24,583 bases of DNA, taken from positions 1-24,583 of the IMG/VR virus record IMGVR_UViG_3300037119_004250, one strand, 5' to 3'. Shown here in pieces: positions 6,929-8,703 of this stretch. The position numbers and the translations under genes are program-made. The notes under the pieces were generated by a model, which made no database searches, had not been told where the DNA came from, and saw nothing but the letters and a program-made list of their open reading frames with translations. Each line of letters begins with the position of its first letter. Position 1 is the first letter of the stretch. Origin of the DNA: a virus.

Positions 6929-7195
6929 ATGCGGCTGGCTGAATTCATGGAAAGTCGGCAACTGACCGACTTGGAACTGGCGGAGCGCGTCGGCTGTCCG
7001 GAGGTGGCCATCCGGCGCCTGCGCTGCGGCTACGTGCGGCCCTCGCTGGAACGGGCCTTTGCCATCGAGCAAGTCAGCCAGGGCGAGGTTTCCTTGGCCG
7101 ACTGGCAGTATCCGGTGAGGTACAAGCCGCACAGGCCAAAGAGCAATGCCGGTTCAACTCGATCTTCTCAAAGGCAAACGTCAGCGCGGGGTTAA
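6929..7195 (+). CDS. XRE/Cro-type HTH regulator
   Basis: The protein has 88 residues. The first 60 form an XRE-like helix-turn-helix: MRLAEFMESRQLTDLELAERVGC, then PEVAIRRLRCGYVRPSLERAFAIEQVSQGEVSLADW. The turn GCPEVAIRRLRCG is the usual recognition segment. The tail after ADW is basic and Ser/Thr-rich, and it overlaps the start of the nuclease gene by 50 bases. A GGAAG ribosome site at 6914-6918 supports the ATG at 6929. It begins the long rightward block and faces the leftward recombination operon across a 17-base palindrome, which it probably binds. Such proteins decide the timing of early genes or the lysis-lysogeny switch in phages. Confidence 0.75.
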   Translation: MRLAEFMESRQLTDLELAERVGCPEVAIRRLRCGYVRPSLERAFAIEQVSQGEVSLADWQYPVRYKPHRPKSNAGSTRSSQRQTSARG

Positions 7196-7562
7196 GCCGC
7201 CGCCGGCCTTGGAGTTTAGGACACAGTGCGCCTTGGCGGATTTGCTGCGCTATTCAGCCGATCCGGAGTGGTGGTGGACGGCATTCCCGGCGGACGGGCT
7301 GCGGAGCAAGGTCACGGCGGCGCGGATGAAGCGGGCGGGGCTGCGCGCCGGCATGTCGGATTTTGTTTTCATCTCGCCAGATGGCCGCTTTTGCGGCCTC
7401 GAAATTAAGCGGGGTCGTCTTGGCCGCCTTTCGGAAGCCCAAGAATCGTTCAAGGCGTGGTGCGACCGTCACGGTGTGGCCTATGCGGTGGCCGATTCCT
7501 ATGACGCGGCGGTCGCGGTGCTGGTCGGCTGGGGCGTGCTGAAAACGGAGGTCGGGACGTGA
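7146..7562 (+). CDS. VRR-NUC domain nuclease
   Basis: The 138-residue protein consists almost wholly of one VRR-NUC domain of the PD-(D/E)xK nuclease superfamily. An N-terminal Glu/Gln helix (LEFRTQCALADLL, 22-34) precedes RAGMSDFVFI with Asp72, LEIKRGRLGRLSEAQESF with Glu86, Lys88 and Gln99, then a C-terminal helix. Stand-alone VRR-NUC proteins in phages resemble Holliday-junction or flap nucleases and probably resolve replication or recombination intermediates. The start overlaps the XRE gene by 50 bases. Its stop overlaps the GTG start of the transglycosylase-like gene (GTGA), so the two are translationally coupled. Confidence 0.87.
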   Translation: MPVQLDLLKGKRQRGVKPPPALEFRTQCALADLLRYSADPEWWWTAFPADGLRSKVTAARMKRAGLRAGMSDFVFISPDGRFCGLEIKRGRLGRLSEAQESFKAWCDRHGVAYAVADSYDAAVAVLVGWGVLKTEVGT

Positions 7563-8197
7563 TCTACCTTTCCGGCCATTACCGGGCGGCATTGCTCGAC
7601 TTGCCGGGTTGCGGGTTTCTGGTCACGCCAAAAGGGGCGAATGCGTCGGCGGACCTGGCGGCGCTGCCGTGGGCGGTCGATACGGGATGCTTCGCGCAGC
7701 CCGAATCCTTCGATCTGGAAACCTACCTTTCCTTCCTGACCGGGTGCCGTCCTGCGGTGGCGACGTGCCTGTTTGCGACGGCGCCGGATGTGGTGGGCGA
7801 TGCGGCGGCAACGTGGGCGCGGTCGCGGGACGTGCTGCCGGCGATTCGGGCGCTCGGCTATGCGGCGGCGCTCGTGGCGCAAGACGGGATCGAGGCGACG
7901 GCGGTCGAGTGGGGCGCCTTCGACTGCCTGTTTTTGGGCGGGTCGACCCGGTGGAAGCTTTCGCATCACGCGCGCGAGGTGACGGCGGCGGCGCTTTCCC
8001 GGGGCGTGCCGGTCCACATGGGGCGGGTGAATTCCTACAAGCGGTTGCAGACGGCCAAGATGTGGGGCTGCGCCTCGGCGGACGGCACGCTCCTCGCGTT
8101 CGGGCCTGACGCCAATCTGCCGCGCGTGCGCTGGTGGCTCGACGGCCTTGCGGCGCGCCCGGTGCTGAATTTCGGGGGGGCCTCATGCTCGGACTGA
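7559..8197 (+). CDS. TGT-like (DpdA-related) 7-deazaguanine transglycosylase
   Basis: This 212-residue protein reads like a shortened tRNA-guanine transglycosylase barrel. VDTGCF with Asp41 corresponds to the DSGGFQ active-site strand, APDVVGD (76-82) to the PD..M strand, VAQDG (107-111) and FLGGS (126-130) to the base-recognition loops, PVHMGRVN (152-158) to the YLMGVG strand, and GCASADGT with Asp175 to the nucleophile region. FGPDANLPRVRWWL follows. DpdA-family phage enzymes use this fold to exchange guanine in DNA for a 7-deazaguanine such as preQ0. The start is GTG at 7559 with GGAGG 7 bases upstream. The gene overlaps a YhhQ-like queuosine-precursor transporter by 13 bases, which is the strongest support for the function. 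It is smaller than bacterial TGT (about 375 residues), and a DNA substrate is inferred. Confidence 0.72.
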   Translation: MIYLSGHYRAALLDLPGCGFLVTPKGANASADLAALPWAVDTGCFAQPESFDLETYLSFLTGCRPAVATCLFATAPDVVGDAAATWARSRDVLPAIRALGYAAALVAQDGIEATAVEWGAFDCLFLGGSTRWKLSHHAREVTAAALSRGVPVHMGRVNSYKRLQTAKMWGCASADGTLLAFGPDANLPRVRWWLDGLAARPVLNFGGASCSD

Positions 8198-8703
8198 CGG
8201 CGCTGGCCGGGTTCATTGCGACGATTCCGGCGGCCAACTGGCTGATCGGGCATGTCGGGGCGTGCATACCGGGTGGTCCGTGCGTGATCCCGGTCGGGTT
8301 CGGGCTCTCGGCGCCGTCCGGGGTGCTGGTCATCGGTTTGGCGCTGGTGCTGCGGGACGTGGTGCATCACCGGCTGGGTGCTCGCGTGGCGCTTGCGGCA
8401 ATCGTCGCCGGGGCAGGGCTGTCGGCATTGGTGGCGCCGGGGGCGCTCGTGGTCGCGTCGGCAACGGCATTCCTGTTGTCCGAAATGGCCGACTTTTGGG
8501 TCTATGCGCCGCTCTATCGCCGGCAGCTCGTTTGGGCGCTGGTGCTTTCGGGGTTGGCCGGGGCGATCGTCGATTCGGCGGTTTTCCTGTGGCTGGCGTT
8601 CGGGTCGCTCGATTTCCTGGCTGGACAGGTGGTCGGCAAGCTGTGGGCGACGCTTGCGGCGGCGGCGCTCGTCCTGGCGTGGCGGAAAACGGAGCTCGGG
8701 TGA
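8185..8703 (+). CDS. yhhQ: YhhQ-type queuosine-precursor (preQ0/preQ1) transporter
   Basis: This 172-residue membrane protein has about five or six hydrophobic helices. It contains the family hallmark PVGFGLSAPSGVLVIGLALVLRD (around 34-56), after NWLIGHVG and before VVHHRLG. These match the VUT/YhhQ family, which imports queuosine precursors in bacteria; E. coli YhhQ is about 220 residues. Further on, SEMADFWVYAPL matches the conserved charged segment of a middle helix. The ATG at 8185 has a run of seven G 4 bases before it; an in-frame upstream start at 8134 would add a non-hydrophobic leader and is less likely. It overlaps the end of the transglycosylase-like gene by 13 bases, so the two products very probably act in one pathway: import of the deazaguanine, then insertion. 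Confidence 0.85.
   Translation: MLGLTALAGFIATIPAANWLIGHVGACIPGGPCVIPVGFGLSAPSGVLVIGLALVLRDVVHHRLGARVALAAIVAGAGLSALVAPGALVVASATAFLLSEMADFWVYAPLYRRQLVWALVLSGLAGAIVDSAVFLWLAFGSLDFLAGQVVGKLWATLAAAALVLAWRKTELG

Follow-up and report, generated by a model that had tools for sequence, protein, structure and literature searches.

A putative tailed-phage module for salvage-type 7-deazaguanine modification, pairing a compact DpdA-like transglycosylase with a YhhQ-type transporter

Gene content of the locus

The window, by which we mean the whole stretch of DNA analysed, is an entire viral contig of 24,583 bases that may be a fragment of a genome; searching phage records with the full window at near identity returned no match. 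Given the presence of RecE/RecT-type recombination genes, a terminase, a portal, and a major head protein, the window is taken to derive from a tailed phage. Three overlapping genes on the plus strand form a run: (i) a VRR-NUC domain nuclease gene (7146..7562; PF08774, E 1.7e-5, just over the cut-off; phrog_824, E 1e-22), (ii) a gene for a short (clade I) DpdA-like guanine transglycosylase (7559..8197; GTG start, 212 aa; phrog_15826, E 1e-59), and (iii) a gene for a YhhQ/QPTR-type (COG1738, Vut_1) predicted 7-deazaguanine precursor importer (8185..8703; ATG start, 172 aa). The end of the nuclease gene overlaps the start of the dpdA-like gene by 4 bases, and the latter overlaps yhhQ by 13 bases. 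Since a GGAGG Shine-Dalgarno site lies directly 5' of the dpdA-like GTG and the genes overlap, the gene starts are well supported. As upstream neighbour in the same overlapping run, the nuclease gene is only a candidate member of a module with the other two.

A preliminary description of this DNA, made from its letters, had placed both open reading frames at these positions, including the 13-base overlap, and had listed enzyme motifs and a YhhQ hallmark. All of them are present: VDTGCF (D41), APDVV (D77), VAQDG, FLGGS, HMGRVN (H153, R156), and SADGT (D175) in the enzyme, and PVGFGLSAPSGV in the second protein. It had also pointed to a lack of queuosine-synthesis genes, and neither QueC nor QueD is found in the window, an absence that is weak on its own given that the contig may be a fragment.

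The second protein scores 39.2 bits against the Pfam model Vut_1 (PF02592), above the cut-off of 27.2, and 32.9 bits against TIGR00697 ('queuosine precursor transporter'), under the cut-off of 50.95; a relative from an alphaproteobacterial genome (L104) also falls under the latter cut-off (34.0). Hydropathy and alignment reveal several hydrophobic membrane-spanning segments and conserved columns, and the protein is 49-73% identical to YhhQ proteins of bacterial genomes, mostly alphaproteobacterial. By profile, it is assigned to the YhhQ/QPTR family (COG1738, PF02592), and it would thus be predicted to transport preQ0 or preQ1.

Family, residues, and predicted fold of the enzyme

The 212-aa enzyme gave no match in Pfam at E values up to 1 and none in NCBIfam. 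The model for canonical tRNA-guanine transglycosylase (TGT; PF01702) has no match in the window, and the model for long phage DpdA (PF23859) does not match the enzyme; PF23859 likewise leaves the DpdA of Escherichia phage CAjan unmatched, and it finds the long DpdA of locus L046 at E 2e-43. The family that does match, PHROG 15826 (E 1e-59), is listed with unknown function. The nearest database relatives of the enzyme, about 50% identical, are already annotated as DpdA-like tRNA-guanine transglycosylases in Mycobacterium and Arthrobacter phages, so the preliminary description, which had suggested a distinct branch of DpdA, overstated the novelty of the enzyme. Membership in DpdA2 was dropped on length (464 aa versus 212 aa).

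In an alignment with 44 relatives, D41, G43, D77, H153, R156, and D175 are invariant, which argues that the motifs did not arise by chance; Asp41 and Asp175, the two residues that had been singled out beforehand, are among them. Together with a GG segment present in the enzyme, these positions follow the order of the TGT active site, and by that order they probably represent two base-binding/general-acid aspartates, a Gly-rich segment, and a nucleophilic aspartate. The invariant H153 aligns with the profile column of the histidine in the CAjan HAFG motif. In the literature the conserved histidine of DpdA is position 196; H153 was compared with the CAjan column only.

The expected barrel was recovered as a compact one in an AlphaFold2 model (pLDDT 92, pTM 0.88, eight strands), which predicts the (beta/alpha)8 fold of the TGT/DpdA superfamily. 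A fold search of the PDB placed many tRNA-guanine transglycosylase entries among the best matches, mixed with transaldolases and ribulose-phosphate epimerases; because these barrels also match, the fold alone does not fix the family. Viral fold matches included phage queuine tRNA-ribosyltransferases, and sequence searches of the PDB, with the single protein and with the family profile, yielded nothing useful.

Homology to proven DpdA was traced by profiles. A short-family profile containing no long DpdA finds CAjan DpdA among 6,401 ORFs at E 1.3e-8, with the landmark residues aligned. When the profile is split by clade, this link is carried by clade II (E 4.6e-8), whose profile also matches the barrel of Pantoea phage MED16 gp38 at 194 bits, and clade I, that of the window, is joined to clade II by hhalign at a probability of 92% (E 7e-7). 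The first PDB matches of the clade II model are Cap10 (a CBASS protein), human TGT, and archaeosine TGT, and MED16 DpdA has been linked to Thermotoga maritima TGT by a published HHpred match (PMC8306585). The profiles therefore connect the window enzyme to proven DpdA stepwise only, from clade I through clade II to CAjan and MED16, and suggest common descent with it. Direct hhalign comparison of clade I with TGT detected no link; given that the long PF23859-type DpdA fails in the same comparison (1.3% probability), we read this as insensitivity of shallow alignments.

A different compact TIM-barrel enzyme with no transglycosylase activity, such as a nucleosidase or a phosphodiesterase, would fit the fold search, where other TIM barrels score as high as TGT, and the failure of curated TGT/DpdA models to match. 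We consider it very improbable, given that the invariant residues follow the TGT order, that the profile link via clade II reaches proven DpdA, that the clade II fold matches TGT-type enzymes first, and that YhhQ, QueE, and QueD recur in the context described below.

Recurrent pairing of yhhQ with dpdA

Loci were fetched by the window YhhQ alone, so that DpdA was not presupposed, giving 61 phage loci (42 clusters at 90% identity) and 79 from bacterial genomes. DpdA lies beside YhhQ in all 59 phage loci that could be checked, the other two being cut at a contig end, and near YhhQ in only 7 of the 79 loci from bacterial genomes. A short DpdA on the same strand is found within about 0.5 kb of YhhQ in 57 of the 61 phage loci, and in two (L046, PF23859 E 2e-43; L062) a long DpdA occupies the same place. 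Adjacency of the homologues to yhhQ in other phages, which the preliminary description had proposed as a check, is thus strikingly frequent, and this pairing is a stronger result than the identification of the enzyme.

A Fisher test on these counts takes no account of how the loci are related, and its value should be read with that reservation; exchange of partners provides a better argument. Transporters that are up to 87% identical adjoin DpdA partners that are only 12-20% identical and come from the two short clades, DpdA sequences having been clustered by average linkage: YhhQ is 87% and DpdA 16% identical between L041 and L050, and the corresponding values between the window and L012 are 72% and 20%. 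The long DpdA constitutes a third lineage that also occurs beside YhhQ. Because similar YhhQs adjoin very different DpdA lineages, partners were swapped while the pairing was kept. The converse pairing is incomplete: in loci that span only a few kilobases and are in some cases themselves incomplete, YhhQ is present in 25 of 46 fetched with clade II DpdA, near only one of seven close relatives of the window enzyme, and in the flanks of 3 of 37 long DpdAs. The enzyme consequently seems often to work without YhhQ.

These patterns bear on whether the two genes act jointly. DpdA and YhhQ might be separate cargo of an inherited phage cassette, the transporter working for the queuosine metabolism of the host, as could be argued from the many short DpdAs that lack YhhQ and from a weakly supported tree region that holds most of the pair-bearing phage YhhQs. 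Gene order varies, however, with either dpdA or yhhQ first; the two genes are mostly close or overlapping; and adjacency persisted through exchanges of DpdA between lineages that are 12-20% identical. We therefore regard mere neighbourliness as improbable.

Several further features of these loci were recorded. A conserved ORF of about 80 aa (CPxD...EDI...HxGVxT) adjoins short dpdA in L004, L005, L011, L012, L043, L047, L055, L063, and L238/L239; those examined have no meaningful Pfam match, and the suggestion of a mini QueD for the small ORF by dpdA found no support. Another family of small ORFs (EPRFIIERADGKPI...APAQHRYA) lies between dpdA and yhhQ in L025, L050, L055, and L076, and L223 contains two short DpdA copies at one locus. 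In Escherichia phage phiG7 (L072, 5881-6473) a relative of the window-clade DpdA is split over two ORFs between polymerase genes; this phage also has an intact long DpdA.

Precursor supply, proposed module, and known systems

QueC was absent from every pair-bearing record examined, many of which are 35-67 kb long and of unmeasured completeness; QueD was absent from one set of pair-bearing records, QueC having been checked in further records, and FolE from ten records. Elsewhere, Arthrobacter phage Sonali combines a clade I DpdA with QueC and QueD, and the 8.5 kb of it that were examined contain no YhhQ. In L257, a window-clade DpdA is immediately followed by QueE, and in Caulobacter phage DMCA a clade II DpdA is immediately preceded by a QueD-like gene. 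L257 and Sonali fit a pattern in which the enzyme goes with either import or synthesis of the precursor. Of the seven pair-carrying bacterial genomes examined, five contain full-length QueC and two only weak partial matches, so that the pair occurs with and apparently without host preQ0 synthesis. QueC lies beside yhhQ in L206 and L207 (Metarhizobium and Rhizobiales genomes), L207 also having QueE- and QueD-like ORFs; as judged by eye, neighbouring genes at both loci may be defence-related.

The same genomes help to weigh tRNA as the substrate. Bacterial YhhQ serves tRNA queuosine, queG lies near one bacterial-genome relative of the transporter (L109), and the enzyme belongs to the TGT superfamily; a compact tRNA transglycosylase fed by YhhQ could therefore maintain queuosine in host or phage tRNAs in the course of infection or lysogeny. 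Neither function is missing from the hosts, however, as every one of the seven pair-carrying bacterial genomes already has tgt at full length (E 1e-150 or below) and yields additional Vut_1 matches. The 212-aa enzyme is also far shorter than TGT, and its relatives with data (CAjan, MED16) belong to phages with modified DNA. This role is accordingly judged unlikely.

The best reading, to which we assign a probability of roughly 0.7, is that the two genes form a tailed-phage module for 7-deazaguanine modification of the salvage type. The coupling of a TGT/DpdA-type enzyme to a YhhQ-type importer, as put forward in the preliminary description, is supported. In such a module, YhhQ would sit in the host inner membrane and import a base that serves as queuosine precursor, most likely preQ0 and possibly preQ1. 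The compact DpdA would then use the double-displacement chemistry of TGT to take guanine out of the target nucleic acid and put the imported base in its place, with D175 as the putative nucleophile, D41 as general acid/base, and D77 in the base pocket, as assigned by homology. The target would most likely be the phage's own DNA, and modified DNA may be less visible to host nucleases and protected from restriction. Trace or no modification has been reported for the DpdA-only phages measured so far (7-11, MED16, Orion) (PMC8306585, PMC6884629), and the importer could lift the precursor limit that would leave them in this state.

More broadly, phages may possess a separate, salvage-based class of DNA hypermodification that joins an importer to a compact DpdA, has been put together repeatedly from three or more DpdA lineages, and suits precursor-poor hosts, with the window as its clade I version; we would give this proposal even odds. 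Mycobacterium smegmatis mc2 155 is one host that lacks genes for preQ0 biosynthesis (PMC6884629). DpdA phages without precursor genes have so far had no explained source of the base, and the near-obligate linkage of YhhQ to DpdA offers a concrete, testable supply route, which predicts that modification hinges on environmental bases. The linkage further suggests a likely function for PHROG families 15826 and 4899, both of which are listed as unknown. Our literature search turned up no base analysis for any such phage.

The idea of salvage is not new. Hutinet et al. (2019) brought together 76 phages with DpdA alone, proposed uptake, and reported YhhQ in some phages with 'no correlation' with phage group (PMC6884629), and thus had already raised salvage by DpdA-only phages, phage YhhQ included. 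In EC151 and Seuratvirus phages, a transporter lies beside the full set of synthesis genes (PMC8310023). For the linkage of YhhQ to DpdA we found no earlier report in a literature coverage that is incomplete, and the clade may already bear another DpdA name.

Known systems share parts of this arrangement. CAjan has a homologous transglycosylase (gp35), whose deletion showed that dPreQ0 requires it (PMC6884629), and a YhhQ-type preQ0 transporter (gp41); unlike in the window, its DpdA is 306 aa long and lies within a full folE-queD-queC-queE set, and the transporter is not adjacent. Among phage transglycosylases, DpdA2 of Vibrio phage nt-1 likewise falls outside the first group of DpdA (PMC6884629), but it is 464 aa long and accompanied by de novo preQ0 genes. 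The long PF23859 DpdA (phiLM21, mycobacteriophages) sits in the corresponding position next to YhhQ in L046 and L062, yet it is about 270 aa long, belongs to another lineage, and usually lacks YhhQ in the flanks examined (present in 3 of 37). Like the window, MED16 (gp38) and Salmonella phages SEN1 and SW9 ('DpdA/TGT_1' cluster) have a short DpdA and no phage preQ0 genes; MED16 DpdA, however, belongs to clade II, with no YhhQ within 3 kb on either side of gp38 as annotated, and in MED16, the nearest DpdA-only phage with measured DNA, dADG amounts to no more than a trace (about 0.13% of G) and protection is not visible (PMC8306585). While their gene order is reversed (yhhQ first) and their YhhQ is annotated only as a hypothetical or membrane protein, Mycobacterium cluster P-type phages (Majeke gp53-gp54, gp54 being annotated as a DpdA-like tRNA-guanine transglycosylase), Arthrobacter phage Aoka, and Rhodococcus phage ReqiPine5 resemble the window in that a short clade I DpdA of about 50% identity has a YhhQ-type membrane gene next to it or close by.
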